Below, in pieces: positions 2,348 through 49,129 of a stretch of 49,129 nucleotides of DNA. The number at the start of each line of letters is the position of its first letter. Position 1 is the first letter of the stretch. Source of the stretch: Candidatus Iainarchaeum sp. GTDB lineage: Archaea; Iainarchaeota; Iainarchaeia; Iainarchaeales; VGJJ01. The DNA lies in the NCBI GenBank assembly GCA_016198125.1, contig JACQJG010000009.1, positions 69,104-118,232 of the forward strand, read 5' to 3'. A program made the position numbers and the translations under genes. The notes beneath the pieces are model-generated. The model ran no database searches, was not told the DNA's origin, and saw only the letters and a list, made by a program, of their open reading frames with translations.

Positions 2348-2992
2348 TCAAGCCTGGGCGCGTTTGACGGGTGGATTGACAAGGCGTTGAACGCGTTCAT
2401 CTTCTTGTAACGCTACCAATACTTTTTTGTAAATCAGGTGCGCACCCTGGCGTGTCATATGATGCCGTTTGCCCAAGGCCGCGAAACTCACGCCATTAAT
2501 CCGCGCAAGAAAGATATTCCAATCCCTTTTGCCAACGAGGCGTGGACCTAATGTGGCAACACGGCGTGCGACTTCCCGTGTCGCAATGACTTCAAAGTTT
2601 CTACGCAAAGAAGGGTCTGCAATTAATTCATTGGCAAACCCCAAAGGGTCTGAGTTTAAGGAGAGTACACGTGTTTTTGGATTTCTCTTAGGATTGCTTC
2701 GAAAGGTGCGCAAATGAGAGATGATTCCCCGCACCTTGAAATCTAAAAAGGTGGAAAGCCTGTGCTTCCCATCATACTGCCACAACCTGGGAATAAGTTT
2801 GAGATTGACTTCCTGTACAAGTTCTTGAAATGGCATGGTGTGCAGAAGGTCTTTTCCATACCTCCTGCAAAAAAGGGCAATCATTCCCTGATTCGCTACA
2901 AGCAGACGCTTTTGCTTCCTGCCAAAGCGGGCCTTTGGAACCCTGTCCTGCAAGGATTTAGGGTTTGGGCGTTTTCCCTTTCTTAATCCCAT
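2348..2992 (-). CDS. Sigma-70-like protein (regions 2 and 4)
   Basis: Predicted 214-residue protein that looks like a short bacterial sigma-70 family factor. Residues 33-96 resemble region 2: VANQGMIALFCRRYG, then PFQELVQEVNLKLI (compare the bacterial LIQEGNLGL), then RLSTFLDFKVRGIISHL, matching the FSTYAxWWIRxAI helix that reads the -10 element. Residues 136-196 end in a helix-turn-helix (GVSFAALGKRHHMTRQGAHL) placed like region 4.2. The start is highly basic. It is the last gene of a five-gene minus-strand glycan operon, about 29 bases after the asparagine-synthetase gene. The ATG at 2992 is preferred over a GTG at 3004. An archaeal RNA polymerase normally uses TBP/TFB, so real sigma function is unproven; it may be a DNA-binding regulator. 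Confidence 0.62.
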   Translation of the reverse strand: MGLRKGKRPNPKSLQDRVPKARFGRKQKRLLVANQGMIALFCRRYGKDLLHTMPFQELVQEVNLKLIPRLWQYDGKHRLSTFLDFKVRGIISHLRTFRSNPKRNPKTRVLSLNSDPLGFANELIADPSLRRNFEVIATREVARRVATLGPRLVGKRDWNIFLARINGVSFAALGKRHHMTRQGAHLIYKKVLVALQEDERVQRLVNPPVKRAQA

Positions 2993-3021
2993 AACGACCA
3001 GCACGTAGAGTGAAACCCGTA

Positions 3022-4953
3022 TTAAAGAGTTCCCTCAAGCTTTTTTGGAGGGTGAATTTCATCCGGGTCAATGAACGTGCGGTGCCATAATTCCAATACG
3101 AGCAGGCTCCAAATCTGCCGGTCCAGTATGAGCGGGCTTGTTGCGCGCGCGCGGAACAGTCCTTCAACATATTCGGGCTTGAACAGGCCCCGTTCGCGCG
3201 CAGGGAAATCCGTTAAAATGGAGCGCGCGATTTCCCCCAATTCCCCGTTCAGCCATTGCGTGAGGGGCACGGAGAACGGGAATTTTTTGGCTTCAAACAC
3301 AAAGCGCGGCACGCGGTTTTTTACTGCACGCCTGAAAACAGCTTTTTCATTTGAATCTTGAACTTTGAATGAAGGGGGCAATGACAATGAAAACTCCATT
3401 ACTTTATGGTCTACGAAGGGCACGCGGCCTTCAAGCCCAAACGCCATGGCAAGCTTGTCCTGCTGGAGAAGAATATAATCAGGAAGCCAGGTGGTAGTTT
3501 CACGCACCATGGCTTTATGGGTCAAAGGCCCTTGGACGCGTGCAAACATGCTATTTAGCGCCTCGCGCTGGGCGCTTAAAGGCGGATTTAGCGTGTTCAC
3601 CCCCAACTCTTTCATGTCTTTTGCATCAAACAAGGACACAAGGTCCAGGTACTTTTGCTCCGTGGAATTCAGGGGGTCAAGGAATTGAAGGGCGCGCGCT
3701 TTTCCCTTGACACCAATGGAAGTGCTGTACTGAAACACGTTATCCAGCGCCTGCAAAGGGGCATGCCGTACAACCCTGCGTGCCAGGGAATTTAGGGGGC
3801 CTTTGGAAAATGCAAAAGGATACTTGCCCATCAGCGAGAGCACCTTGTAATGGCTGTACCCTCCAAAAGCCTCATCGCCTCCCTCTCCGGTTAAAACGAC
3901 TTTGACTTTTTTGGACGCGTACTCGGACAACAAGTATTTGGATGCAATCACTGCATCTGCAATGGGTTCATCCAGGTGGTACACGATTTCAGGCAGCCTG
4001 CGCAGTTCTTTTTGCGGAGGAATAAACGAATGGTGTTTTGTTTCAAAATGCTCGGCCACGCGCCGGGCTTTTTGCGCCTCAGATTGAGGGTCTTCTTCAA
4101 AGGAAATGGAAAACGTTTCAATGTGCTCGGGCACAAGGTCGTGCATGTACGATACGATGGCCGAGGAGTCAAGACCTCCTGAAAGAAAAACGCCCAGCGG
4201 AACATCGCTTTGAAGGTGCGATTCAACAGTGCGGCCGAGAAGGGCATTCAATTGCATGGCTGCGCCTTGCATGGAGCCGTTGAATGAAGGTTTAACATAC
4301 GGATTCCAATACTCTTTGATTTGCAGGCCTTTGCTGGATGCAAGCAAATAGGTTCCAGGCTGCACGCGCTGAATGCCCTGAAAAAAAGTGGCAGGCCCTG
4401 GAACATACCGGTAGGCCAGGTAGTCCGCCAGCACGTTTTTGTTTGGAACGCGTTGCACGAAGCGGGCTTGGAGAATGGATTTGGCTTCCGAGGCAAAGAC
4501 CAGCATGTCATCCTTGTAATAATAATACAACGGCTTGATGCCCAGCCTGTCACGCGCAAGAAATACCTGTTTCCTGTTTGCATCCCACAATGCAATGGCA
4601 AACATGCCCTGCAACCGCTCCACGCACGCAGGACCCCATTCTTCATATGTGTGAACAATGGTCTCGGAATCGGTTTGCGTGTAAAACGAATGGCCTTTTT
4701 TTTGTAATTCCATGCGGAGCGCTTTGTAATTGTAGATTTCACCATTGAATGCAAGGAAAATGGATTGGTCTTCGTTGTGAATGATGGGTTCCCGTTTTGT
4801 AGTGTCAATGATGCTCAGCCTTCGGTAGCCAAGGCCTATATTTTTGTCCGTGAAAAACCCTTCTCCGTCCGGGCCCCTATGCGACAGGGCGTTGGTCATG
4901 GCATTCAAGAGGGTTTTATCTTCCAATCCAAAATAACCGCAAATGCCGCACAT
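3022..4953 (-). CDS. asnB: Glutamine-hydrolysing asparagine synthetase-type amidotransferase
   Basis: Two-domain enzyme of 643 residues. The N-terminal class II glutaminase domain begins MCGICGYFG with the nucleophilic Cys2 after Met removal, followed by SHRGPDGEGFF and FNGEIYNY. The C-terminal synthetase domain has the ATP pyrophosphatase loop SGGLDSS (residues 258-264) and GEGGDEAFGGY. Ammonia from glutamine would amidate an aspartate or another carboxylate activated by ATP. The gene lies 4 bases from a flippase gene inside a glycan operon. In such loci AsnB-like enzymes often amidate sugar carboxyl groups (known family behaviour), so free asparagine synthesis is only one possibility. Length is normal for the family. 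Confidence 0.9.
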   Translation of the reverse strand: MCGICGYFGLEDKTLLNAMTNALSHRGPDGEGFFTDKNIGLGYRRLSIIDTTKREPIIHNEDQSIFLAFNGEIYNYKALRMELQKKGHSFYTQTDSETIVHTYEEWGPACVERLQGMFAIALWDANRKQVFLARDRLGIKPLYYYYKDDMLVFASEAKSILQARFVQRVPNKNVLADYLAYRYVPGPATFFQGIQRVQPGTYLLASSKGLQIKEYWNPYVKPSFNGSMQGAAMQLNALLGRTVESHLQSDVPLGVFLSGGLDSSAIVSYMHDLVPEHIETFSISFEEDPQSEAQKARRVAEHFETKHHSFIPPQKELRRLPEIVYHLDEPIADAVIASKYLLSEYASKKVKVVLTGEGGDEAFGGYSHYKVLSLMGKYPFAFSKGPLNSLARRVVRHAPLQALDNVFQYSTSIGVKGKARALQFLDPLNSTEQKYLDLVSLFDAKDMKELGVNTLNPPLSAQREALNSMFARVQGPLTHKAMVRETTTWLPDYILLQQDKLAMAFGLEGRVPFVDHKVMEFSLSLPPSFKVQDSNEKAVFRRAVKNRVPRFVFEAKKFPFSVPLTQWLNGELGEIARSILTDFPARERGLFKPEYVEGLFRARATSPLILDRQIWSLLVLELWHRTFIDPDEIHPPKKLEGTL

Positions 4954-4957
4954 GACA

Positions 4958-6433
4958 TTACCTCTTAAACGAATTCAACCGGTCCTGCACCCACTTCAAC
5001 GGGTGCACTGCCATGGCCAGGAGGATTTGCTTGTCGTTGGACAACACCAGTCCGGAGTGCCACGCCAAAGCAATAAAACTGAATGCGAGCACAGCCCCCA
5101 AAAAAACCTGGGCTTCGAGAAACTGGGGAACTGCATACGCCAGTGCTATGAAAAAACCCACCATTCCAAGGGCTTTTCCAATGGCGCGCAGTGGGAGATG
5201 AATGAGCGTGCGCACCTTCCAATAACATCCAAGCAAAAGAACGGCATACGCGCCAATCATGGCCATTCCTGCCCCTGCGGCATAAAAAAGCGGAACCAGG
5301 TACAAGGCCAGTGCAATTCCAATTCCAAGTGCAAGCACGTGCAGTGCAATGAGGTATTTCATTCTGTTGAGTGCCTGCAAAGCCACGTGCAGTACAAGAA
5401 ATACGGCATTCAACAGGTGCACGATGACAAGGATTCCCACCAGAGGAATGGCAGGAGCAAATGCGGGGCCATACAAAATGTTTACAAGCAGGCCGCGTAA
5501 TACAACAACTCCAATCATGGTAAAACCAAGAACCAAGACGAGTTGCACGATGCTGCGTTCTAATGTGTATCTAAGAAGTTTTTCGTCTTTTTTGGCATTG
5601 GACTCTGAAAAATAGGGCAAGAGCACGCGCTTGAATGAAACCCCCAAAAACATAGTAGCCCCTGCAAGCGTGAAAGCCCCGGCATACCAGCCCACCCATT
5701 CACGGGGCGCAAAAGCGCCCAGCAGGATTTTGTCCAACTGGGGGATAAAGGCATTGACCAGTTCGTTCAACGTAAGCCAGCCCCCAATGGCCACGATTTC
5801 ATGCGGGACAATGGGCGCAGGGTTAAACACATGGCCTTTGAGACGGTACAAAAAAACCAGGATAAGGGGATAAGGCGCCAACGCCATTCCAAGCACGGCG
5901 CCTTCTGCTTTCAGCCCAATGGCCAGGAGCAAGAACAGGGTTAAAGCGATTAAAATGAACTGGCGCGTGAACTCAAACAGGGAGAAAAATGCAAAGCGCT
6001 TGAGGCCGCGCAAAATCCCGGTAAGGTTTACGTACAATATTGAACCAAGTACGAAGGGTGCGGCTTGAAATACAAGGGACGTTAATGTTGAGTCGTTGTA
6101 CAGGACTTGGGCAATAAAAGGCGCAAGCCCCATGAACAACCCGGTTGCAAGCAGTCCAAACACAAGCGAAAAAAGAACATGGGTTTTGATGAGCGGCGCC
6201 AAGGGCTTTTTTTGCGCACGGTACTCGGTTATTTTTTTTGTGATGGCAGTGTCCAGCATGAGCGAGCCCAGCACAATAAACCAGGGGGCAAACGCAAACA
6301 CCAAAGCCATGGTTCCCAGTCCTTCAGGGCCCAGCACGCGCGCAAGAATGGGCGTGTAAAAAAACGTGAGCACTTTGCCTAAGAGGATTCCTGCCACAAG
6401 CACAAAAGAATGCCGGATGATTTCCTTTTGCAT
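4958..6433 (-). CDS. Wzx-like polysaccharide/oligosaccharide flippase
   Basis: Integral membrane protein of 491 residues with about 12-14 hydrophobic segments throughout and almost no soluble domain. It starts IIRHSFVLVAGILLGKVLTFFYTPILARVLGPEGLG, which has the pattern of the MOP/MATE-superfamily polysaccharide exporters (RfbX/Wzx): a first helix, then a short loop with an LGPxxLG motif. It would flip a lipid-linked glycan from the inside to the outside of the membrane. It sits 6 bases after a glycosyltransferase gene and 4 bases before the amidotransferase gene, consistent with one operon for making and exporting a surface glycan. The substrate is not readable. Confidence 0.88.
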   Translation of the reverse strand: MQKEIIRHSFVLVAGILLGKVLTFFYTPILARVLGPEGLGTMALVFAFAPWFIVLGSLMLDTAITKKITEYRAQKKPLAPLIKTHVLFSLVFGLLATGLFMGLAPFIAQVLYNDSTLTSLVFQAAPFVLGSILYVNLTGILRGLKRFAFFSLFEFTRQFILIALTLFLLLAIGLKAEGAVLGMALAPYPLILVFLYRLKGHVFNPAPIVPHEIVAIGGWLTLNELVNAFIPQLDKILLGAFAPREWVGWYAGAFTLAGATMFLGVSFKRVLLPYFSESNAKKDEKLLRYTLERSIVQLVLVLGFTMIGVVVLRGLLVNILYGPAFAPAIPLVGILVIVHLLNAVFLVLHVALQALNRMKYLIALHVLALGIGIALALYLVPLFYAAGAGMAMIGAYAVLLLGCYWKVRTLIHLPLRAIGKALGMVGFFIALAYAVPQFLEAQVFLGAVLAFSFIALAWHSGLVLSNDKQILLAMAVHPLKWVQDRLNSFKR

Positions 6434-6439
6434 GCGCGT

Positions 6440-7393
6440 TCACGCTTCCTGCGTGCGTCCAATCACGCGCTTAAACCAAGAAAGATTATATGCCCACACG
6501 AAAACGGTTTCAGTGACAATCACATACCACGCGTGATTGAAAATGAATTCCTTTGACAGGCCTTTTCCCAAATCCTTAACAAAAACGCCCAACCATAATC
6601 CAAGAAAAGCAAACAAAAAAAGCCCCCATAACCCCAGTCCAAGCAAAGGCCAAAAAATAAAAGAAACTGCCCCAGAAAAACCAGCGAGAGCCCACGCAGT
6701 AAACAAAATTATTTTTACACCCCTGAACTCTCCCGGGTGTTTTTTCCAGTACTTGTGCATGTTCATTCCAAACCACCAGCTGCGTTTTAACGCGTGCCTC
6801 CACGAAGAAGGCTCCCCTCTATGGCGTTGCACGGCGTTGTGCGCAAAGTGAATTTTTACTCCTTTTGCAAGCGCGCGGTCTCCCAAATCCTTGTCTTCGG
6901 CACAATTCAAAGACTCGTCAAAACCCCCCAGTTCAAGGAAGAGTTTTTTATCGAACACCCACGCGCTGAAGGGCGTGTAATTCCTGTACCGCGCAGTGAA
7001 GAACGCGTCATTGAGTCTGGCCACAAAAGATTTTGGTTCAAACACCTGGCGCCGGTCAATGACCGCTTGAGCGCCTTTTGCAAGTTCTTTTTTAACTTCC
7101 TCCAGCCAATTCAAGTCGTATGAAGAATCGTCTTCAATGAATGCCATGTAATCTCCTTTTGCATGGCGCGCGCCAAAATTGCGTGCCGCGCTGCGCTCCA
7201 AGTGCTTTTCCAGTTCAAGCACTTTGACGCCCTTCTTTTTTTTCAGGCATTCAACAGTGGCATCCGTGCTTTTATCATCCACTACAAGGATTTCATGGAA
7301 TTTAACCGTTTGATTCAACAGCTCATCAACGGTTTGGGATACAACAGAAGCACGGTTGCGTGTTGGAACAATGGCGGAAACCTTGAAGGGCAT
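6440..7393 (-). CDS. Family 2 glycosyltransferase
   Basis: GT-A glycosyltransferase of 317 residues. VSAIVPTRNRASVV near residue 5, ILVVDDKSTDAT near residue 36, and IEDDSSYD near residue 92 match the nucleotide-sugar and metal-binding motifs; NCAEDKDLGDRAL gives the later ED motif. The last 80 residues contain two or three hydrophobic segments (FTAWALAGFSGAVSFIF and following), suggesting membrane attachment. It lies between the B12-type radical SAM gene upstream (13 bases) and the flippase gene downstream (6 bases), so it probably adds a sugar to the glycan that the flippase exports. Specificity is unknown. Confidence 0.88.
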   Translation of the reverse strand: MPFKVSAIVPTRNRASVVSQTVDELLNQTVKFHEILVVDDKSTDATVECLKKKKGVKVLELEKHLERSAARNFGARHAKGDYMAFIEDDSSYDLNWLEEVKKELAKGAQAVIDRRQVFEPKSFVARLNDAFFTARYRNYTPFSAWVFDKKLFLELGGFDESLNCAEDKDLGDRALAKGVKIHFAHNAVQRHRGEPSSWRHALKRSWWFGMNMHKYWKKHPGEFRGVKIILFTAWALAGFSGAVSFIFWPLLGLGLWGLFLFAFLGLWLGVFVKDLGKGLSKEFIFNHAWYVIVTETVFVWAYNLSWFKRVIGRTQEA

Positions 7394-7406: not shown

Positions 7407-8870
7407 TTACACAGCCCATGCCGACTTCATGCGAAAGCGCAAGGCTTGAAGGAATTGAAGGGAATGATTCAGGGGTTTAACCGTGAGCACTTTGAAAATC
7501 GTGGAGTACTTGGAGTGAATGCCCATTTTACGAAGCCATTCACGCACGTTGATCGTGTAAAACAAGGCTTTTTGAAGGTCTTTCACCTGCTCTTTTGAAA
7601 GGTGTTCGAGCTTGAAGGCAGACTGTTCTCCATAACCTCCAATGGCCTGCCAGTGGGGGTCTTGAATAAGCCCTTGTTCGGAGAGGCGTTCATACAAGTA
7701 GGTTTGGGGAAGAGGCGCTGCAATGGTTACCTGGGCATACGTTGGCTGGATTTCATCCAGCAAATACACCGTTTCCCGCACAGTTTCCAGGGTTTCACCC
7801 GGGCTTCCAACCATCAAATAGGCCTCAGTTTGCAGTCCGGCCTCGCGCATGCCCTTAAAGCCTTGAACGAGTTTTTCCCGTGGAAGCTTTTTGTCAAGCA
7901 CGGTGTTGCGGATAAAATCGTTTCCGGATTCAACGCCTGCAGAAACAAGAATGCACCCTGCTTTTTTCATGAGCACGGCAAGCTCTCCTTTGGGCATGGT
8001 GTCGCACCGCGTGTTGGCAGTCCATTTCACGTTCACTTTTTTTTCAATCAGGAGCTCGCAAAATTTCTTGAGCCAAATGTGATTGTAGGTCAAACCGTCA
8101 TCCGTGAAATGCGCTTCTTTTAGTGCATGGCCTTTTTGCGCAAACAATTCTTTTGTTTCCAGCAGTTCCTGCACCATGTTTTCTGGAGAGCGCATGCGGA
8201 ATTTTTCTCCAAACAACTTGTCCAGGGTGGGCTGGCAGAATGCACATGTCCACGGGCACCCTCTTGTGGCCATAAAAGAACAAATGCCTTCACGAAAGTA
8301 TTTTTCGTCCAACAAGTGGCGTGCAGGCAAAGGAAGTTCATCCAAGTTTTGGAGCAGGGCCCTGGGAGGGGTTAGGATTACTTTTCCTTCTTCATCCTTG
8401 AATCCAATGCCCTTGACTTCATGCAGGCTTTTTCCTGCAACAAGAACATTCATCAGCTCTGAAACCGTTTGCTCGGCTTCCTGCGTAACCACGATATCTA
8501 TCCCTTCTTCCTTGAGCGTATCCGTTGGAAGCAATGTAGGGTGGGGCCCTCCAATGATTATTTTAGTTTTAGGAAGTGCCTTTTTAATTTCCCGGATCAA
8601 TGGAAATGTCTTGTCTGCAAACACGCTTTGAAGGGAAAAAAATACAAACAAGGGCGCTGAATCCTTGATGCGCTGAATTACTTGGGCTTCGCTTAAAAGG
8701 GTTCCATCCAGGAACTCCAATGCATACCCTGCTTTTTCAAGCACGCCTGCAACCCATAAAAAGCCCAGGGGCATGCCCATGTTCCGGTACACAAAACGCG
8801 GGAAAACAAGCGTAACCTTGCGTGCAGTCTCTTCATTCACGGTACGCGTGATAGGCAAGTGCGCATTCAA
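7407..8870 (-). CDS. B12-binding-type radical SAM protein
   Basis: Predicted enzyme of about 487 residues. The N-terminal 150 residues have the Rossmann-like cobalamin-binding layout (MPLGFLWVAGVLEKAGY, then IIIGGPHPTLLP) but no DxHxxG motif, as is usual for this class. The radical SAM motif CPWTCAFC gives Cys205, Cys209 and Cys212. Family members methylate unactivated carbons or do other carbon-carbon chemistry on lipids, cofactors and antibiotics. It would be the first gene of the minus-strand operon that ends with the sigma-like gene. The start is uncertain: the open frame begins at a TTG (8870), with TTG 8858 and GTG 8840 as alternatives; a TATA-like element at 8883-8892 favours 8858. Confidence 0.83.
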   Translation of the reverse strand: MNAHLPITRTVNEETARKVTLVFPRFVYRNMGMPLGFLWVAGVLEKAGYALEFLDGTLLSEAQVIQRIKDSAPLFVFFSLQSVFADKTFPLIREIKKALPKTKIIIGGPHPTLLPTDTLKEEGIDIVVTQEAEQTVSELMNVLVAGKSLHEVKGIGFKDEEGKVILTPPRALLQNLDELPLPARHLLDEKYFREGICSFMATRGCPWTCAFCQPTLDKLFGEKFRMRSPENMVQELLETKELFAQKGHALKEAHFTDDGLTYNHIWLKKFCELLIEKKVNVKWTANTRCDTMPKGELAVLMKKAGCILVSAGVESGNDFIRNTVLDKKLPREKLVQGFKGMREAGLQTEAYLMVGSPGETLETVRETVYLLDEIQPTYAQVTIAAPLPQTYLYERLSEQGLIQDPHWQAIGGYGEQSAFKLEHLSKEQVKDLQKALFYTINVREWLRKMGIHSKYSTIFKVLTVKPLNHSLQFLQALRFRMKSAWAV

Positions 8871-8882
8871 ACCCTAAAACCC

Positions 8883-9000
8883 CTTTAAAAGCCTGCTCGA
8901 AGGGAATTGAGCAAAAACCCTTATTATAGTTATTGGTGCTTAATCCAGCAACAATGTACAAGAACGCTTAAATACGCGTGTGAAAGCATTGCATAAAAGG
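8883..9000. promoter_or_regulatory. Divergent promoter region with TATA-like elements
   Basis: The gap between two divergent radical SAM genes holds CTTTTAAAGG at 8883-8892 (for the minus-strand operon), TTAAATA near 8968-8974 and ATAAAAGG at 8993-9000, the last centred about 22 bases before the ATG at 9018. This spacing fits archaeal leaderless transcription. No operator-like repeat was seen. Confidence 0.45.
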
Positions 9001-9017
9001 TCCAAAGGTTCGGTTTC

Positions 9018-10394
9018 ATGAAAAAAAAAGTGTTATTAGTGTACCCCTCGTTTTCCTTTGAAGGCTCACTTGTGGAAGACGCCGAATCCACCATGCCTTC
9101 CATTCCATTGCTGTACATTGCAGGTAACTTGGTGTCGGAACACGAGGTCCGATACCTGGACATGAATTTGTCCAAAAAACCCATTGAAGATGAACTGCAA
9201 GCATTCAATCCTGATTTTGTGGCGCTCACCTCTTACGCAGTCAACTTTCCTGAAGCCGTGCGTGTGGCCAAATCCATAAAGTCCAATAACCTTAACACTA
9301 AGATTATTTTGGGCGGCCATCATGCATTGCAGTGTGGCCGGCAAATAGTTGAACAATACCCGGAATTTGACTTTGTATTGCGTGGCGAAGGCGAATTTTC
9401 ATTCAGAGACCTTGTAAACGGGAAAAGCCCGCTTGAAATCCCCGGCTTGCTGTTCAAGGCCAACAATCAAGTCATTGACAACGGTTCTGCCATGGTCCCA
9501 AACTTGGATTCCATTCAGTTTCCTGCACGCGAAATTGTGGACCCCAAGGATTACTCAGAATCGCCTATTTACTATTTGAACGAACCGCACACATTTTTGC
9601 TGAGCTCGAGGGGGTGCATTCATGAATGCACCTTCTGTGATTATGCCAACAAAGACCCTTTGCGGGGAAGAAGCGCGGAGAACGTGCTTGCAGAATTGAG
9701 AGTCATGCAACGCCAGGGCTATAAGGACTTTCGCATCATCGATGAATTGTTCTCGTACAGCAAGCCCCGCGTGAAACAGATTTGCGAGGGCATGGCAAAA
9801 GAAAAAATGGATTTCTCCTGGCATTGCCAGACAAGGGCGGACCTTTTGGATGACGAAATGCTGGACAAAATGGCAGGTGCCGGGTGTTTTTCCATTCAAA
9901 TGGGCGTTGAAACCGGCAGTCAGAGGGTTATGGACAAGATAAAAAAACGCCTCACGCTTGAAACCGTGCAAAAAGGCGTGGACATGGTGAAAAGCCATGG
10001 CATGAAAGCCTACGGTTCGTTCATGCTGGGCTTTCCATTTGAAACGGACGAAGAAAGATATCAAACCATTGAGTTCGCGAAAAGCCTTAATCTAGATATG
10101 GCTTTTTTCAGCATTGTCACCCCGCTGCCCGGGACAGAGTTGTGGAAGGAATCAGGCTTGGATGCCATGAACAATGATGACTTGAAGAAACTGCGCATTT
10201 TTACTCCCGAAGGCTCGTTTGTGGAAAAAGAAAAAATCCAAAAAGTGCACCGAGACGCTGTGAAAGGGTTTTACCTGCGCCCCAAGACCGCGCTCAAAAT
10301 CCTTGCCGATGCAACGCTCAACGGTGCTACGCGCAGAAGGACGCGCTACCTGAAATTCCTGTGGAGCCAAATGCGCAGTCCCACGTATTTTTGA
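9018..10394 (+). CDS. B12-binding-type radical SAM protein
   Basis: Predicted enzyme of 458 residues. The N-terminal cobalamin-type domain includes KVLLVYPSFS, SIPLLYIAGNLV and IILGGHHALQ, followed by FDFVLRGEGE, the common loop before the radical SAM barrel. The cluster motif is CIHECTFC (Cys200, Cys204, Cys207), and the usual FRIIDELFS and IQMGVETGS segments follow. The tail carries GFYLRPKTA, shared in form with the fragment at 1-159 and the next gene. It heads a two-gene plus-strand unit with 10415-11827, divergent from another paralogue. Such clustered enzymes often act in sequence on a lipid or polyketide-like chain; here the substrate is unknown. Confidence 0.85.
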   Translation: MKKKVLLVYPSFSFEGSLVEDAESTMPSIPLLYIAGNLVSEHEVRYLDMNLSKKPIEDELQAFNPDFVALTSYAVNFPEAVRVAKSIKSNNLNTKIILGGHHALQCGRQIVEQYPEFDFVLRGEGEFSFRDLVNGKSPLEIPGLLFKANNQVIDNGSAMVPNLDSIQFPAREIVDPKDYSESPIYYLNEPHTFLLSSRGCIHECTFCDYANKDPLRGRSAENVLAELRVMQRQGYKDFRIIDELFSYSKPRVKQICEGMAKEKMDFSWHCQTRADLLDDEMLDKMAGAGCFSIQMGVETGSQRVMDKIKKRLTLETVQKGVDMVKSHGMKAYGSFMLGFPFETDEERYQTIEFAKSLNLDMAFFSIVTPLPGTELWKESGLDAMNNDDLKKLRIFTPEGSFVEKEKIQKVHRDAVKGFYLRPKTALKILADATLNGATRRRTRYLKFLWSQMRSPTYF

Positions 10395-10414
10395 ATAAAG
10401 GCAAAGGTACTTTT

Positions 10415-11827
10415 ATGAAAGTAGCACTCGTACGGCCTTCCTATCACACGCACATCGTGAGCCCTCCCCTTGGAATGGGATACGTGGCCTCAGCGTTAAA
10501 CCATGCAGGCCATGAAGCCAGAATCATAGACGGTTTAAACCAGGATTTGAATGACGGCCGGATCATTGAAAAAGTCCAGGAATTTGGGGCTCAGCTGGCT
10601 GGAATATATTGCATGTCCGCCTACTTCCTGCGCGCAGTTGAATTGACGCAAAAACTGCATGCGGCTGGAATCAGGGTCATGATGGGCGGCACACAGCCCA
10701 CGTTTTTGCCGGAATTCACCATGCAAAAATCAGGAGTTGACTTCATTGTAAGCGGCGAGGCCGAGGAAACCGTGGTAGAACTTGCGTCCGCGCTGGAGAA
10801 AGGAATTGAAGTGGAAGGCATTCCTGGCGTGTACACGGGCCCTGGAAAAAAGTTTTTTCCCCGCGACAAAGTAGTGGACTTGGACAAGATTCCATTCCCG
10901 GACTGGGAGCAAATTGACCCGCGCACGTACAAGAAAGCACCGCATGGCGGACTCATACGACACTTTCCCTATGCGCCCATCACTTCAACCAGGGGATGTC
11001 CTTACCGGTGCACGTTCTGCGCAAGTCCAAAGTTTTCGCAAAAACAAATTACGTTCAGAAGCCCTGAAAATGTGGTTGCGGAAATTGAACTGCTTGCAGA
11101 CAAGTACGGCGTAAAAGAAATTCACTTTGAAGACGACAACTTTACATTGAAACGCAGCCATGCAGAAGGCGTGTGCAGGCTGTTGATTGAAAAAAACATT
11201 AAAGTGGTATGGGCGTGCCCCAACGGAGTGAGGGCAGACAAGGTTGACCTTGAATTGCTGAGGTTAATGAAAAAAGCAGGGTGCTATTACCTTGCCTTTG
11301 GCATTGAAAGCGGAAACCAAAAAATCCTGGACACTGTCATCAAGGACACCACCCTGGAAAAAATTGAAACCGCGGTAAGGCTTGCAGACCAAGTGGGGAT
11401 CATGACCCAGGGGTTTTTCATTTTTGGACTTCCAGGGGAAACCGAGCAAACCATTGAACAGACCATTGAATTCGCAAAACGCATCCCCCTCACAAGGGCA
11501 CAATTCCTTGTGCTGGATGTAATGCCCGGCACCGCGTTATGGGACGAGTTAAGGTTTGACGAAAAAGTGGACTGGACAAAGAACTCCTACCATGAAATCA
11601 CGTGGACCCCGCCCACAGTGAAACGCGAATCCTTGGAACAGGCCGCGCCGCGCGCATTCAAGGCCTTTTACTTCAGGCCCAGGCAGGCATGGTCCATTCT
11701 CAAGTACATGCGCCCGGAACAAATTCCATTCATCATCCAGCGCGTCCTGGATTACGGGCTGTTAAAATTGCCCGGGAAAAAAACAGGCACTGCATTGCCG
11801 GCCCAGGCATTGAATGACAGCCCATAA
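10415..11827 (+). CDS. B12-binding-type radical SAM protein
   Basis: Predicted enzyme of about 470 residues. MKVALVRPSY, PPLGMGYVASALNHAGH and VMMGGTQPTFLP are the cobalamin-domain landmarks; IVSGEAEETV links to the barrel, where CPYRCTFC gives Cys195, Cys199 and Cys202. HFEDDNFTL and FGIESGNQ are typical downstream strands. The ATG at 10415 was chosen over an upstream in-frame ATG at 10361, which would overlap the previous gene by 34 bases and only add a non-conserved leader. The last 76 bases overlap, tail to tail, the membrane protein gene on the other strand. Probably co-transcribed with 9018-10394 and acting in the same pathway. Confidence 0.86.
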   Translation: MKVALVRPSYHTHIVSPPLGMGYVASALNHAGHEARIIDGLNQDLNDGRIIEKVQEFGAQLAGIYCMSAYFLRAVELTQKLHAAGIRVMMGGTQPTFLPEFTMQKSGVDFIVSGEAEETVVELASALEKGIEVEGIPGVYTGPGKKFFPRDKVVDLDKIPFPDWEQIDPRTYKKAPHGGLIRHFPYAPITSTRGCPYRCTFCASPKFSQKQITFRSPENVVAEIELLADKYGVKEIHFEDDNFTLKRSHAEGVCRLLIEKNIKVVWACPNGVRADKVDLELLRLMKKAGCYYLAFGIESGNQKILDTVIKDTTLEKIETAVRLADQVGIMTQGFFIFGLPGETEQTIEQTIEFAKRIPLTRAQFLVLDVMPGTALWDELRFDEKVDWTKNSYHEITWTPPTVKRESLEQAAPRAFKAFYFRPRQAWSILKYMRPEQIPFIIQRVLDYGLLKLPGKKTGTALPAQALNDSP

Positions 11828-17984: not shown

Positions 17985-20777
17985 ATGGGGGAACAAAGGG
18001 TGAACCGGCACGCAGTAATGGGAATAGCATTCATTCTGTTTCTAAGCGGTGCCCAGGCCGTGGCCCCGGTTGTAAGCCTTGAAAGCCCTTCCGGGACCGG
18101 GGTTTACTGGAACGGCGTTAAAACCATTTCCTTCAAAGTAACGGACGCGGATTCAACCGCGGTCCTCAAAGCCAACGTGCAGTACTCGGCCGTGGAAACA
18201 TTCACATCATGGCCCGGAACCCCCATCGTGTCCAACATGGATTTGAACGCAGAAAACTGCGGTGATTCCGATTTCACCACGCAGAACACGTGCACCTTGA
18301 ACTGGAACACTGCCTCCGTTCAGGACAAGAATTATTACATTTACGTGGAAGTAATTGATTCCAACAATGGAAATGAAACGGCAAGCGATTCCACGGACAA
18401 CGCGTTTGCAGTGGACAACATGGTGCCAGAAACCCCTGCTTTTACGAACACAAATGTCACGTGGAAGAACACGAATGCCAATATTACGCTTTCATGCAAT
18501 ACTGACGGTAACGGGGCATTGAACTGTTATACCATCACCTACAAGGTGGACAATGATTCCAACACTGTTTACACGGGCCCCTTCACCATTTCCTCTGACG
18601 GAGACCATCCCATTGCATTCTTTTCAACCGACGCGGCTGGAAACGTTTCGCCCACGACAACCATTCATGCGCTGGTGGACAAGACCGCTCCCACTATTAA
18701 CGGCCAGTCGCCTGCAAGCAGTTCATACACCACTGATAACACGCCCCTTATTGAATTTGACCTCAACGGCTCTCCAAGCGGGCTAATCACTGCGGATTTG
18801 AATATTTTAATTGACGGAAACGTTGTCACCGTGGACATTAACTCTTCCAGCATATCAAATGGGAAGCATTACTCGTACCAACTGCCTTATGTAAAAGCGG
18901 ATGGAGTCATTCAAGTTCAGGTATTCAACGCCTCGGACAACGCGGACAATGATGCAAACCTGAGTTATTCATTCACCGTGGACACTATGACACCAACGTC
19001 GCTGACCATTTCACTGCCGGATTTCACAAACACCGGCAAGCCCTCCATTTCGTTGAGTGCAACTGACGCTTCGGGCATTTCAAAAATGGTTTTCGCGTGC
19101 ACGGACGCAGGGCTTTCAAGCGGAACGGAAGTGAATTATGCCACCAGTTACAGTGATTTCAACATTCTTTTAGGCCCCGGTTGTTCGGGAGGCGACGGAA
19201 CAAAAACGGTTTTCGTTAAATTCAAGGACAATGCGGGAAACTCTTATTCTTCCAGCGTGTCTGATTCAACCAATTATGACACTACCAAGCCCAGCGCGCC
19301 CAGCATAAGTTCAGGCCCCAGTGCTTCCGGAAACACGGTAACGTTAAGCTGGAGCACGCCTTCAGATGGCAGTGGAAGCGGCATAAACAATTACAAAGTA
19401 TACCGCGGCACTGTCAATACTTTTTCAAGTGCAAGCCTTGTCAGCAGCCCCACTGGAACTACGCACACGGATACTGGTTTGAGCGACAATACGTATTATT
19501 ATTGGGTCAAAGCCGTGGACAAAGTGGGATTGGAAAGCGATGAATCCCAGGCTGGGAGTGTTGCAGTGGCAGTCGGCGGTTCAAGTAATCCCAGCGGCGG
19601 CGGAAGCAGTCCAACAACCTCGGATGGATGCGATTATGGATCATCGCTTGCATTCTCTGCAGTTCCAGGAAATGGAGTGCTGAATGCAAGTGTTACCTCC
19701 AGCCAGGCCATGTACAGTGCAACCCTACGCGTAAAACTGCCCAATGCCGCCAGTTCAGTCAAACTGGTGGACGGAGACAATGTGACTGTGTTGAGTGGAA
19801 GTGTTCCTGCTCCAACGCCGTTGATTGGAACGGTTTCCGTGATTTTGTTTGCCAATGACGCGGAAGGAGATTCATGCAATACCACGAAAAACATTGCGGT
19901 AAACAGCACGCTCACTGCTTCTGACACAAATGATGCAATAGGAAGCGGCAATGACACGGGGACAACAGACGAAGAAGGCGCAGGTCCCACAGCGCTTATT
20001 TCACTGGAAGACCTTGAAAATGGAACCGTGGAAGACCAAATAGATATTGCATTTAACTTTGACATTCTTGCAGATATTTTGGCTGAAAGCGGTTTTGCAG
20101 AGAACCGCATTACTGGATTGGTTGCAGAAACCACTCAATTGGCCCGGCAAAACAATTTGAAAAGAACCATTGAACGTGTACGCGTTACTTTGAATGGAGT
20201 TGAAGCGTACGCGTTAAGAGTGACATTGCGCTTTACCAATGCGTCCAGCGATTCCGGCATTGAATTCATTGAAGACGTTCCAAAGGCATTGGCCCAAAGC
20301 GCTTCCCTGCTGGCGAGCGACACGCCTTTTACGGTTGTAAAAGAAGACCCTCAAATCAAGTTTTCCATTTCAAGCCTCGTTCCTGGACAGGAAGTAATTA
20401 TTCGCTATTGGGCCACAACGCCCTTGTCAGAGCTTGATGCCCAGGGAATCATGGCTTTACTCCAGGACGATTTTACTGCACCTGCCCTTATGCTGCGGTC
20501 TGCCGGAACCCCTACAGATGTGGGAAGCGCAATCACTGGACTGGCAGGGTTTGTGGGCGCAAACATTGCATGGATTGGACTCGGTGTTGTAATTATATGG
20601 GGCGTGCTCGTGGGCATGTCACGCATGCGAAACGCCCAGCCTGCAATGATGGGAGAAGGATTGCACACGGTCAACAACAATTGGAATTCGCCCCTGTCTG
20701 GTTTGAAAGTAGCCGAGGCCAGGCGCAAAAAGGAAACCGCTTTGCGCGTGAAAAAATGGCGGTTTGAAGAACAATAA
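17985..20777 (+). CDS. Large secreted surface protein with Ig-like and fibronectin III domains and C-terminal anchor
   Basis: Protein of 930 residues. The N-terminus has a basic stretch and then GIAFILFLSGAQA, a signal peptide. Residues about 30-440 contain repeated bacterial Ig-like units, each with phrases such as DNMVPETPAFTN, DKTAPTINGQSP and DTMTPTSLTIS. A fibronectin type III-like domain follows (about 445-530: PSAPSISSGP, then YKVYRGTVNTF, YYYWVKAVDKVG). A Gly/Ser-rich linker (about 530-545), a beta-rich domain and then a transmembrane helix (about 870-890: WIGLGVVIIWGVLVG) with a basic cytoplasmic tail complete it. It would be a membrane-anchored surface or adhesion protein. Many NxS/T sites suggest N-glycosylation. 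Partners are unknown. Confidence 0.82.
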   Translation: MGEQRVNRHAVMGIAFILFLSGAQAVAPVVSLESPSGTGVYWNGVKTISFKVTDADSTAVLKANVQYSAVETFTSWPGTPIVSNMDLNAENCGDSDFTTQNTCTLNWNTASVQDKNYYIYVEVIDSNNGNETASDSTDNAFAVDNMVPETPAFTNTNVTWKNTNANITLSCNTDGNGALNCYTITYKVDNDSNTVYTGPFTISSDGDHPIAFFSTDAAGNVSPTTTIHALVDKTAPTINGQSPASSSYTTDNTPLIEFDLNGSPSGLITADLNILIDGNVVTVDINSSSISNGKHYSYQLPYVKADGVIQVQVFNASDNADNDANLSYSFTVDTMTPTSLTISLPDFTNTGKPSISLSATDASGISKMVFACTDAGLSSGTEVNYATSYSDFNILLGPGCSGGDGTKTVFVKFKDNAGNSYSSSVSDSTNYDTTKPSAPSISSGPSASGNTVTLSWSTPSDGSGSGINNYKVYRGTVNTFSSASLVSSPTGTTHTDTGLSDNTYYYWVKAVDKVGLESDESQAGSVAVAVGGSSNPSGGGSSPTTSDGCDYGSSLAFSAVPGNGVLNASVTSSQAMYSATLRVKLPNAASSVKLVDGDNVTVLSGSVPAPTPLIGTVSVILFANDAEGDSCNTTKNIAVNSTLTASDTNDAIGSGNDTGTTDEEGAGPTALISLEDLENGTVEDQIDIAFNFDILADILAESGFAENRITGLVAETTQLARQNNLKRTIERVRVTLNGVEAYALRVTLRFTNASSDSGIEFIEDVPKALAQSASLLASDTPFTVVKEDPQIKFSISSLVPGQEVIIRYWATTPLSELDAQGIMALLQDDFTAPALMLRSAGTPTDVGSAITGLAGFVGANIAWIGLGVVIIWGVLVGMSRMRNAQPAMMGEGLHTVNNNWNSPLSGLKVAEARRKKETALRVKKWRFEEQ

Positions 20778-34369: not shown

Positions 34370-35170
34370 CTACTTTGGGCGAGTGATTATTGCGCGCAGG
34401 GTGTCAAATGCCTTTTCCTGGATTTGGCGTGCGCGTTCACGCGAGATTCCCATCTCTGCCCCCACTTCTTTCAACATTCTGGGAGGATTTCCATCCAAGC
34501 CAAACCGCAGGATGATGACCTTCCTCCACGCTGGCCTCAAAGACTTAAATGCTTGTAAAAGCTCCTTGTTTATATGGGCTTGAGCTTCTTCCCCGCGTTT
34601 TGATGCAAGCCAGTTTCGGTATACGACTCCTTCTGTGACATCTACTTTGTCGCCTTCAACTTCCACTTGAAGGGGAGTTGTATGCTGTTTTGCAGCACGG
34701 CGTTGGTGTAGTACGTATCTTAATGCATTTTTCCATGAGGCAATGACATATGTGGAGAACAAGACTTTTCTTTTATCGTCCCACATCTGAATACAGCGCA
34801 GGGAGTATAGTTGGCACAATTGGGCTAATTCATTTTTATCATCAGGGTTTAACTGCCATTTTTTACTTGTTGCATGCAAAAAGCCTTGAAAGTGTCCTTT
34901 GAATATGCCCTCCAGCATTTTTTCACGCTTTCTTATTTCCTGAGTGGAAAGCACTTGAGTTGGGCGTTTAACAGTCCAGGAAGGATTATTTTTCTTTAGC
35001 AGGTAGTGCAGGTATCTTATTGAGACCCCGTATTTTGCGGCGGAGGCATGAAGTTCTGCTTGAGTGCTGGGAGGATTGGAAAGCAACTCAGGCACGTTGA
35101 CCTTGCTTGGTCTGCCAGGCAGAGGTTTGTTCTTTTTGCGCCCCGCGGGCAAAAAACGGCGTTTTCCCAT
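34370..35170 (-). CDS. Sigma-70-like factor with clear region 4
   Basis: Protein of 266 residues closely resembling bacterial sigma-70 factors. Residues 203-263 include WRKVIILRFGLDGNPPRM and then EVGAEMGISRERARQIQEKA, almost the textbook region 4.1/4.2 sequence that reads the -35 element. Residues about 84-155 fit region 2, with LFSTYVIASWKNALRYVL matching the FSTYAxWWIRxAI helix. The N-terminus is basic, followed by a helix-turn-helix-like segment (AAKYGVSIRYLHYLL, 44-58). There is no region 1.1 or typical region 3. The ATG at 35170 is supported by TTAAATA at 35194-35200, an archaeal-type TATA, about 27 bases upstream; the frame itself opens at 35266. Whether it binds the archaeal RNA polymerase is untested. 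Confidence 0.75.
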   Translation of the reverse strand: MGKRRFLPAGRKKNKPLPGRPSKVNVPELLSNPPSTQAELHASAAKYGVSIRYLHYLLKKNNPSWTVKRPTQVLSTQEIRKREKMLEGIFKGHFQGFLHATSKKWQLNPDDKNELAQLCQLYSLRCIQMWDDKRKVLFSTYVIASWKNALRYVLHQRRAAKQHTTPLQVEVEGDKVDVTEGVVYRNWLASKRGEEAQAHINKELLQAFKSLRPAWRKVIILRFGLDGNPPRMLKEVGAEMGISRERARQIQEKAFDTLRAIITRPK

Positions 35171-46077: not shown

Positions 46078-49000
46078 TTATTGCACGTTTTCTTCTGGTT
46101 TTTTCTTGTACGTGTAGGAAATGGCAAACGCAATCATTAAGAGGAATGCAAATGCCCCTAATTGGAACAGGTTGGTGGGCAGCGAGGCCACGTTGAACAG
46201 GCCCCCTGTTCCCTGGCCGGGGTTGATGATGAACGTGTTCCCTGAGGGTTTGGCGGAAACGCTTCCATCCGGGTTAACTCCAACGCCAAGCCCTTTGTTG
46301 CGGAAGTCATCATTGGTTGGAATGAGTTGCGCGTTTTCCGGGTAATACAATCCTTTTTTGGGGTCATAGTAAAAGGAGCCGTTTTTTCCAGTGGCACTGC
46401 GCAATAATTCTGGCGCGCCGTCATTGTACTTTAAAGTGGGCTGGCCGCCTTCTTCGCCGAATTCAAGGGTGTGATTTCGTCCATCCGCGGTTTGCACTTC
46501 AATAGTTCCATCCGGGTTTTGCTTGATGTTTGAAATTTCCTGGTCTACCAGCACTTCTCCTGTTTTCTTGTCCACTACTTTGAAGTAATCCTTGCATGCC
46601 CCTTCCACGAGTTTGGAGTAAAATACGAATATTTTGGAGTCCGTTTCAAACGTTTGGAAGGGTCCCTGTTTTTTTATTGAAGTGTTAAAATTCTTTGCGC
46701 GCTCGGTGGCCTGGTCGTTGTCCGGGTTGGCGGTAACGGAAAAGTCCACTGCGGGTTCATCGCAGTTTGTTTCAGGATTTTTTGTCTGGGTCAACTCAGC
46801 GTTGAATCCTGTGACATCGTCTTTTGAGATGACGGCACGTTCATCGTGTTTCAGCCAAATCAAAAGTTCGCGCGTTTCAGGCTTGTAAATCATCAGCCCG
46901 TTTTTGAATTGAATGGAGTTCAGCCTTCCAATGCTGGGCACTTCGTGTTCTCTGAGCAGAACGCTTGCACTGTTAAGAACCTGAATCCTTGAATCCGAAC
47001 CGCGCACCACTTTGCGCGCCAGGCCTTCAGCCACAATTTGATTGTTTGTTGGATCCGGGAATACGTTGGAGTGCGTGGTGGTTGTGACGTTTTGTACCAG
47101 TCCAAATGCGTCCGCGAGGTTGGGGGAATTCAGCACCAAACCGGATTGGTCGAATACGGCTTGCTGGATGCAGTTGGCCGCAAGCGAGTCGCGCACCACC
47201 AGTTCTCCCTGCACGTTGATTTCAAACAGCACTTCGTTGTTGTCGGGCAATGCATATTTTCCCAGGCGGTTGGGCACTTCAATGGCCGGAATTTGGTTGT
47301 TGATGCTGTTCAAGCGCACATGGTCTGCTTCTGTGAGGGTGGGTTTTCCGTCTACTGTAATGGTTCCGGACGCGTTGTCAATGACAACCGTTTTATTGTC
47401 ACCTCCAATCAATACCATTTTTCCTTCGGTTTCATACGCGGCTTTGTCCAGTATGCCCCCGCCTGCCACCCAATACCAAAGCATTTCCTTGGATTTGAGT
47501 GTTCCATGGGAGTCGCCCTGCAATTCCAATCGGCCCTGCACGAGGCGGTGTTCCTGCGCGTTGTCTGCAAAGTCTTTCACCTGGGTCGCGACTTCGCGCA
47601 CGGCTTTGTCGGTTAAACTGCCCGTTGAAAAGTCTTTTTCTGCTTTGTCCGCGGCCTTGCGGATGCCGTCCAATACATTGTTGGAGGCAAACTTGGAAAG
47701 GTCTTGTTCTTCCTTGGAAGATTTTGCTTCCGGATTGGACTGGTAAAAGTTGGCAAAGTATCCTTCCTGGTCGTCCACGCAATCATTCAATTCCGGGGCA
47801 AAGTACAATTGTTGCACGGCTGTGGCAAATATTCCAGGGAGTCCAAAAATGTAGTATGTGAGGCTTTCAGTGATGGCCAGCACGCCTCCTGCAGAACCTC
47901 CTCCGGCAAAGTCTGCAATCAGTCCCACTCCCAGGGGAAGCGAGCGCGCTTTTTGTTCGCAGGTTTCATTCTTTCCCTTGGCCGCGGCAATGTTAATGGG
48001 ATTCGTGGATTCCTGGCCTTGAAGTTTTCCTTTAATGTCTGCATGGTGGGCGAATGACACGAGCACCTGGCCTTTTTCTTTTGCATCCTTTGTTACACGA
48101 TCTTCAAATAGAATGCTGGAATAATTCTGCGTAGCATGAAAAGAGGCGTGAATGGATGTGCGCTGCGCGTCCTGGGAGGCAAGAGAGAGATTGCACGCAC
48201 TGCAGTCATCGGGTCCGTAAAGGTAGAAAGCAAGGTTTTCAGGCGTGTCCCTTGAATAGGTTCCACGGGCTTTTTGCCACAAATCATCCACGGGCTTGTA
48301 GCTTGACACAAGGGGGGTTACAACAAAAGCCCCCCATACAAACATGTTGTTGATGACGCGCGTGAAAATATCCCCCTGGTCGGAGCCTTCATGGGAGAAA
48401 AAGTCAATGTAGGCATCCTTGTAAATTTCCTCGTTTCCCGGGGAAAAGTCAAGCACGGAATACTCGTCGGGCAGCCTGAATGCAGAGTACTTGTCTCCTT
48501 CAATTCCAAACAACCCGTCAAATCCTTTTTTGCCCCATACATAGATATATGGAACCACCGTCCACTTTGCTGCTTTTGGGAGGTTGCTGAAATACGCTTT
48601 GATGAGCTCGTCTTCTTCCTGCAATTGCTTGCTGAGCCAGTCTCCATATCGCGCAGAGCTCCAGTCCTTGGCAATGAGCGCGTCCCTGAACGTGCGCTGG
48701 TTTCTGGCCGCCGTGTTAATCTTGTCCGGAATGAAGTCTGCTGAAATGATTTCGTTTCCAAAGTGAATGGGGTCAAGTTCTCCTTTGGGCTGGAAGCCTG
48801 CGTCTACAATTTGCACTACGTTGTTGGTGCGCACGGCATCGGCTTTTATTTGTTCCAAATTGTTGGGAGTTACTTCCACATATTGAAAATTGGACAGGCG
48901 TACAGCCTTCTTGGGGGAACCAGGGCCAAGGTTTTTGAGGATGTCCTCCAACCCCTGGATGCTGGTAGGAGTTTCAATGCCCGCAGGCTTGATTTCATAC

Positions 49001-49129
49001 AATTGAAGAGTGTTGGATCTTCCGGGCACTTTTTCAAAAAAGCTTTTAGAAAAACCGTCCTGCACGCTTTCAGCGTCCTTGTACACATCAAAAATTCCCT
49101 TGTCATAAAACTTTCCTTCTCCCCCAGCA
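46078..49129 (-). CDS. Giant surface protein with C-terminal anchor (N-terminus outside the window)
   Basis: At least 1016 residues; the frame stays open to the right edge, so the start and any signal peptide lie outside. There is no recognised domain. Residues are largely polar with repeated beta-rich phrases such as GKMVLIGGDNKTVVIDN and KKTGEVLVDQEISN. A hydrophobic segment inside (VLAITESLTYYIFGLPGIF) may be a membrane-associated region. The last 45 residues contain one transmembrane helix (FQLGAFAFLLMIAFAISYTY) with a basic tail, so the chain is anchored with the bulk outside. Paired cysteines (DDCSACNL) could form disulphides. Function unknown, perhaps a surface or adhesion protein. Confidence 0.75.
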   Translation of the reverse strand, partial: AGGEGKFYDKGIFDVYKDAESVQDGFSKSFFEKVPGRSNTLQLYEIKPAGIETPTSIQGLEDILKNLGPGSPKKAVRLSNFQYVEVTPNNLEQIKADAVRTNNVVQIVDAGFQPKGELDPIHFGNEIISADFIPDKINTAARNQRTFRDALIAKDWSSARYGDWLSKQLQEEDELIKAYFSNLPKAAKWTVVPYIYVWGKKGFDGLFGIEGDKYSAFRLPDEYSVLDFSPGNEEIYKDAYIDFFSHEGSDQGDIFTRVINNMFVWGAFVVTPLVSSYKPVDDLWQKARGTYSRDTPENLAFYLYGPDDCSACNLSLASQDAQRTSIHASFHATQNYSSILFEDRVTKDAKEKGQVLVSFAHHADIKGKLQGQESTNPINIAAAKGKNETCEQKARSLPLGVGLIADFAGGGSAGGVLAITESLTYYIFGLPGIFATAVQQLYFAPELNDCVDDQEGYFANFYQSNPEAKSSKEEQDLSKFASNNVLDGIRKAADKAEKDFSTGSLTDKAVREVATQVKDFADNAQEHRLVQGRLELQGDSHGTLKSKEMLWYWVAGGGILDKAAYETEGKMVLIGGDNKTVVIDNASGTITVDGKPTLTEADHVRLNSINNQIPAIEVPNRLGKYALPDNNEVLFEINVQGELVVRDSLAANCIQQAVFDQSGLVLNSPNLADAFGLVQNVTTTTHSNVFPDPTNNQIVAEGLARKVVRGSDSRIQVLNSASVLLREHEVPSIGRLNSIQFKNGLMIYKPETRELLIWLKHDERAVISKDDVTGFNAELTQTKNPETNCDEPAVDFSVTANPDNDQATERAKNFNTSIKKQGPFQTFETDSKIFVFYSKLVEGACKDYFKVVDKKTGEVLVDQEISNIKQNPDGTIEVQTADGRNHTLEFGEEGGQPTLKYNDGAPELLRSATGKNGSFYYDPKKGLYYPENAQLIPTNDDFRNKGLGVGVNPDGSVSAKPSGNTFIINPGQGTGGLFNVASLPTNLFQLGAFAFLLMIAFAISYTYKKKPEENVQ

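Follow-up and report, generated by a model that had tools for sequence, protein, structure and literature searches.

Archaea are described as initiating transcription with TBP, TFB, and TFE, without a sigma factor (PMC7289017, PMC12993045). Sigma-70 genes were reported from DPANN archaea, mainly Woesearchaeota, in 2021, with no anti-sigma factor and no analysis of mechanism (PMC8204110); a search of the open-access literature returned no paper on sigma-70 genes of the lineage studied here. In bacteria, the closest described proteins are the ECF (group 4) sigma factors, such as E. coli RpoE. Holoenzyme formation in E. coli requires residues R275, E295, and A302 of the beta' subunit, and archaea commonly lack the beta flap-tip helix, by which sigma4 is held in bacteria (PMC8321222).

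We analyzed a stretch of 49,129 nucleotides from a Candidatus Iainarchaeum genome (hereafter the window; contig JACQJG010000009.1, positions 69,104 to 118,232), which encodes a small protein with the sigma2-linker-sigma4 architecture and the size of a bacterial ECF sigma factor. The motifs of its regions 2.2 and 2.3 can be aligned with those of sigma70, and E. coli sigmaE is the best match of its whole-protein model in the PDB. In contrast to the ECF factors, it occurs in an archaeon with TBP and TFB, has a pI of 11.6 (RpoE, 5.4), scores below the curated profile cut-off, and lacks an adjacent anti-sigma gene, and the RNA polymerase (RNAP) of its own cell is without the bacterial docking residues. 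The DPANN sigma-70 family fam00359 (PMC8204110), compared here by its description, likewise belongs to small-genome archaea that have TBP and TFB and shows no anti-sigma factor; it differs in that its main carriers are Woesearchaeota. The fold and the superfamily are known; the bacterial model does not account for the archaeal setting, the charge, or the absence of the docking residues. We favor, with moderate confidence in the statement as a whole, the reading that this divergent sigma2-sigma4 member acts in its archaeon most likely as a promoter-selective factor on the cell's own RNAP.

Gene and Genomic Setting

The open reading frame begins with an ATG at 2992 and ends with a stop at 2348 on the minus strand (Table 1); an in-frame GTG upstream, at 3004, is a possible alternative start. 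Its codon-position composition is similar to that of the neighboring genes. The gene is the fifth and final member of a tight minus-strand run with gaps of about 4–30 bases, three or four of whose members resemble glycan genes. An earlier sequence-only reading had placed it at the end of a glycan operon, and this position is confirmed; co-transcription with the run is possible. No anti-sigma gene adjoins it, the neighbors being the asparagine synthase gene upstream and a convergent radical SAM gene downstream.

Elsewhere in the window, three radical SAM/B12-binding proteins are clustered at the head of divergent gene runs (7407–11827). Two large acidic proteins of 930 and 1002 aa (17985–20777 and 46078–49086; pI 4.3 and 5.0), possibly surface proteins, stand out from the rest of the window, which is mostly basic.

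Table 1. Coordinates of the sigma-like genes, their domains and motifs, and the gene run within the window
Feature	Position	Strand	Basis
Sigma-70-like protein (214 aa; sigma2-linker-sigma4; pI 11.6)	2348..2992	−	ORF, TIGR02937, homolog
Sigma2 domain, residues 30–98	2699..2905	−	Pfam Sigma70_r2, AlphaFold2, 34/69 identical to homolog
Region 2.2, PFQELVQEVNLKLI, residues 54–67	2792..2833	−	Alignment to E. coli RpoD and archaeal sigma-like proteins
Region 2.3, RLSTFLDFKVRGIISHL, residues 78–94	2711..2761	−	Alignment to E. coli RpoD and archaeal sigma-like proteins
Sigma4-like C-terminal domain, residues 139–204	2381..2578	−	TIGR02937 to model end, AlphaFold2 helices, 12/66 identical to homolog
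Asparagine synthase (glutamine-hydrolysing), directly upstream of the sigma-like gene	3022..4953	−	Pfam Asn_synthase 3e-91
Polysaccharide flippase	4958..6433	−	Pfam Polysacc_synt_3 1.5e-24
Glycosyltransferase family 2	6440..7393	−	Pfam 3.4e-30
Radical SAM protein with B12-binding domain, first of run	7407..8870	−	Pfam
Second sigma-70-like protein, strong region 4	34370..35170	−	Pfam Sigma70_r4 3e-12, NCBIfam

Membership in the Sigma-70 Superfamily

The sigma70-ECF profile TIGR02937 matches the window protein at E = 1.1e-6 over model positions 4–163 of 165, with 28.4 bits against a cut-off of 42.9; Pfam Sigma70_r2 also stays below its cut-off (20.4 vs 24 bits, E = 4e-4), and Pfam Sigma70_r4 gives no match. 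A homolog (30% identity over 181 aa, E = 4.6e-26), which comes from a different genus within the same GTDB family, passes both curated cut-offs, with 49.7 bits (vs 42.9) for sigma70-ECF and 29.7 bits (vs 24) for Sigma70_r2. Given these E-values, the resemblance to region 2 that had been noted from the letters goes beyond chance. Both motifs on which it was based are present, and they align to regions 2.2 (PFQELVQEVNLKLI) and 2.3 (RLSTFLDFKVRGIISHL) of E. coli sigma70, where the intervening turn has a gap of two residues.

An AlphaFold2 model of residues 22–102, for which the homolog was included as input, has a pLDDT of 90 and a pTM of 0.79. Compared with the PDB, this sigma2 model finds sigma factors or their region 2 domains at the top of the list, mostly with TM-scores of 0.6–0.7 and rmsd values of 2–3 Å, including M. 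tuberculosis SigA, E. coli sigmaE, SigE, SigC, and sigma70; within the first fifty matches, the sole exceptions are two chains of 3les, an engineered epitope scaffold. The matches carry weak Foldseek E-values (0.012 at best for the whole-protein model and 0.069 for the sigma2 model), in the case of sigma2 probably because the domain is short. Confidence in the whole-protein model is low (pLDDT 62, pTM 0.39); its best matches are likewise sigma factors, with E. coli sigmaE in first place. With sigma factors leading both lists and TM-scores of about 0.7 to solved region 2 domains, the prediction is of a sigma region 2 fold and not of an unrelated one. The helix-turn-helix proposed at the place of region 4.2 is a putative one: predicted helices at residues 170–176 and 181–197 come in the right order for region 4 and the TIGR02937 match reaches the end of the model, in a region that has diverged and is without a Pfam Sigma70_r4 match.

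Superfamily membership is based on the profile, the homolog, and the predicted sigma2 fold, and there is little doubt that the protein, though divergent, truly belongs to this group. The homolog in another genus also shows that the gene is coding.

At the core-binding positions D403, Q406, E407, and N409 of E. coli RpoD, the window protein has E, Q, E, and N; sigma70 Y430 and W433 are each replaced by F and W434 by K. An alignment of 32 archaeal sigma-like proteins shows D or E at the D403 position throughout, Q at Q406 in 24 of them, and an aromatic residue at Y430 in 30; conservation at D403 and Q406 is partly expected, since most of these sequences were chosen by a region 2 profile.

Sigma-Like Genes in the Genome and the Class

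The genome (20 contigs, 71% complete, estimated contamination 0.66%) contains at least five sigma-like genes. Sigma70-ECF matches at E ≤ 0.001 number five; besides the two window genes, contigs C4, C8, and C18 have a single match apiece, and none of the five reaches the curated cut-off. The second window gene was correctly recognized as sigma-like by the sequence-only reading, as its independent Sigma70_r4 match attests. Its product has a clear region 4.2 and an N-terminal part that looks helix-turn-helix-like by eye; it is without a Pfam region 2 match, yet region 2 can be aligned with its middle part.

Kinship of the two window proteins had been suggested from a shared MG[LK]R start, and an expanded family from their occurrence in one window. 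The first suggestion fails, because direct alignment yields no pairwise match (BLASTP E = 1.7). The second is supported: five sigma-like genes are present, so that "two" understates the number. The window pair does not reflect a tandem family, since its two proteins cannot be aligned with each other. The three other genes (L110:4571-5563 on C8, L111:4374-5036 on C4, and L112:4436-5005 on C18) lie in unrelated contexts, that on C8 near probable ribosomal protein uL3 and uL4 genes (by eye). In the genome that carries the homolog, a further sigma-like gene of 331 aa (contig C104, L113:2285-3280) directly precedes a threonyl-tRNA synthetase-like gene (by eye) and is thus again beside an informational gene.

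Across the class, sigma70-ECF exceeds its cut-off in 18 of 87 species, and Sigma70_r2 matches at E ≤ 0.01 in 25, over its cut-off in 21. Four named control archaea have no Sigma70_r2 match.

A Homolog in Another Genus

The homolog (JAGVNS010000144.1, locus L043) belongs to the MAG DeMMO3_24, which bears the depositor label "Thaumarchaeota archaeon." The two proteins share their domain order and are identical at 34/69 positions in sigma2 (49%), 9/40 in the linker, and 12/66 in sigma4 (18%); the constraint therefore falls on the part that binds the polymerase and melts DNA. The homolog is longer (410 aa; L043:3386-4618), with an N-terminal extension of roughly 218 residues that is absent from the window protein, and it lies among informational genes, not beside glycan genes. 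The genes around it encode eL15, an unassigned ORF, Pop5/Rpp14, proteasome alpha (PsmA), SBDS, and an Rrp4-like protein, a typical archaeal informational cluster, the exosome superoperon. A search for eL15 in the window's own genome as a test of this neighborhood gave no match, an absence that carries no information in a genome 71% complete.

The homolog's setting bears on the suggestion that the window gene connects surface-glycan expression to transcription. Its genome contains no match at E ≤ 1e-40 to the asparagine synthase of the operon. Because the homolog sits among archaeal informational genes in a genome without this enzyme, the glycan link is weak, and a dedicated role in surface-glycan control is unsupported by anything found here.

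Single-protein searches of IMG/VR and GTDB contigs returned no relatives of the window protein. A two-row profile search of the GTDB contigs had the DeMMO3_24 homolog as its sole match, and the same profile found nothing viral in IMG/VR. A second match within the class (G051), from direct protein search, proved fortuitous, as it falls within an ORF of no relation, which leaves one real relative.

The specific group of the window protein is rare, with members in 2 of 87 class genomes. This rarity, the different gene contexts of the carriers, and weak profile similarity to the phage sigma PHROGs 1740 and 351 (E 0.001–0.01) could reflect a sigma gene acquired from a phage or mobile element, short-lived and with no fixed role in its archaeal host. 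We regard such an acquisition as improbable, given that sigma2 is strongly conserved across two genera, that the frame is open with the usual codon-position composition, and that sigma70-ECF matches over the cut-off recur in the class at large (18/87 genomes). The gene also differs from phage-type sigma genes in its surroundings, where no viral genes were seen, and no relative was found among IMG/VR contigs at the sensitivity used.

Residence in an Archaeal Genome

The gene resides in an archaeon with archaeal-type machinery. TBP is encoded on the same contig (C2:22700-23221), TFB on C4 together with a third sigma-like gene, and RNAP A' (an 891-aa frame, the only PF04997 match of the genome) on C8 together with another. 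An assembly of 20 contigs and 71% completeness might in principle harbor a bacterial contig through faulty assembly or binning. Estimated contamination is 0.66%, however, the gene shares its contig with TBP, and the contig of the homolog carries archaeal genes (eL15, Pop5, PsmA, SBDS, and Rrp4); contamination is no explanation, and we give it practically no weight.

Polymerase Interface and Proposed Mechanism

The sigma-side interface residues are kept, and the matching bacterial residues are missing from the archaeal clamp. In the cell's own Rpo1', the clamp coiled coil is canonically archaeal, with I, L, and H at the positions of beta' R275, E295, and A302 (aligned by eye); across 48 loci, also compared by eye, species that have Sigma70_r2 matches showed no visible clamp difference from those that lack them.

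The window protein has a net charge of +30, with a pI (11.6) far from those of E. coli RpoE (5.4) and FecI (5.8). All 32 sigma-like sequences of the class have a pI of at least 9.55, compared with a window median of 8.8 and with 9.6 and 8.4 for the cell's own TFB and TBP. Such strongly basic proteins point to direct DNA binding. Together with the missing R275, E295, and A302 equivalents, the lack of clamp co-variation with Sigma70_r2 presence, and the fall of region 4 to 18% identity between homologs, the charge would suit a stand-alone DNA-binding regulator (a repressor, activator, or chromatin-type protein) that kept the sigma2 and helix-turn-helix folds and lost contact with RNAP. In a protein that binds DNA independently of RNAP, the helix-turn-helix should be conserved no less well than the rest, whereas sigma2 is the best conserved part, including its polymerase-binding positions; we consider this account rather unlikely.

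Retention of the sigma-side residues in a cell whose single RNAP A' lacks the bacterial counterparts could also mean that the protein serves a bacterial polymerase, being delivered to or shared with a bacterial partner whose transcription it redirects. The homolog lies among housekeeping genes, which argues against such export, as does the fact that the known hosts of DPANN-type archaea are mostly archaea; nor was a secretion signal or delivery system seen near the gene. Symbiosis is established for some DPANN-type lineages (PMC8204110), and even so we hold a bacterial target to be very improbable.

The reading we prefer is a promoter-selective transcription factor that serves the cell's own polymerase. 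Its sigma2 domain would attach to the archaeal RNAP at the clamp coiled coil and hold melted DNA, with duplex DNA bound by the basic tail at the N-terminus and by the C-terminal helix-turn-helix. The factor would work beside TBP and TFB and not as their replacement, without a neighboring anti-sigma factor. The missing clamp residues, and the flap-tip helix that archaea commonly lack, weigh against this reading. For docking on the cell's own RNAP, taken by itself, we put the chances at about even; a conserved sigma2 and a diverged sigma4 would fit, rather than prove, a polymerase contact made through sigma2 only. More tentatively, and with less confidence than we place in docking, the lineage may have adopted sigma-70-type proteins of bacterial kind and turned them into a set of several accessory initiation factors, acting on archaeal RNAP alongside TBP and TFB, with a docking mode unlike the contacts made by beta' R275, E295, and A302.

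Implications

Sigma-70 genes of small archaea have already been listed (PMC8204110). The present case provides concrete, testable proteins: a sigma-like factor with a conserved sigma2, a diverged sigma4, and its sigma-side contacts kept, in a cell whose RNAP is without the bacterial contacts, and at least four more such genes in the genome. Should these sigma-like proteins bind archaeal RNAP, one cell would house two initiation systems that are regarded as divided between the domains.
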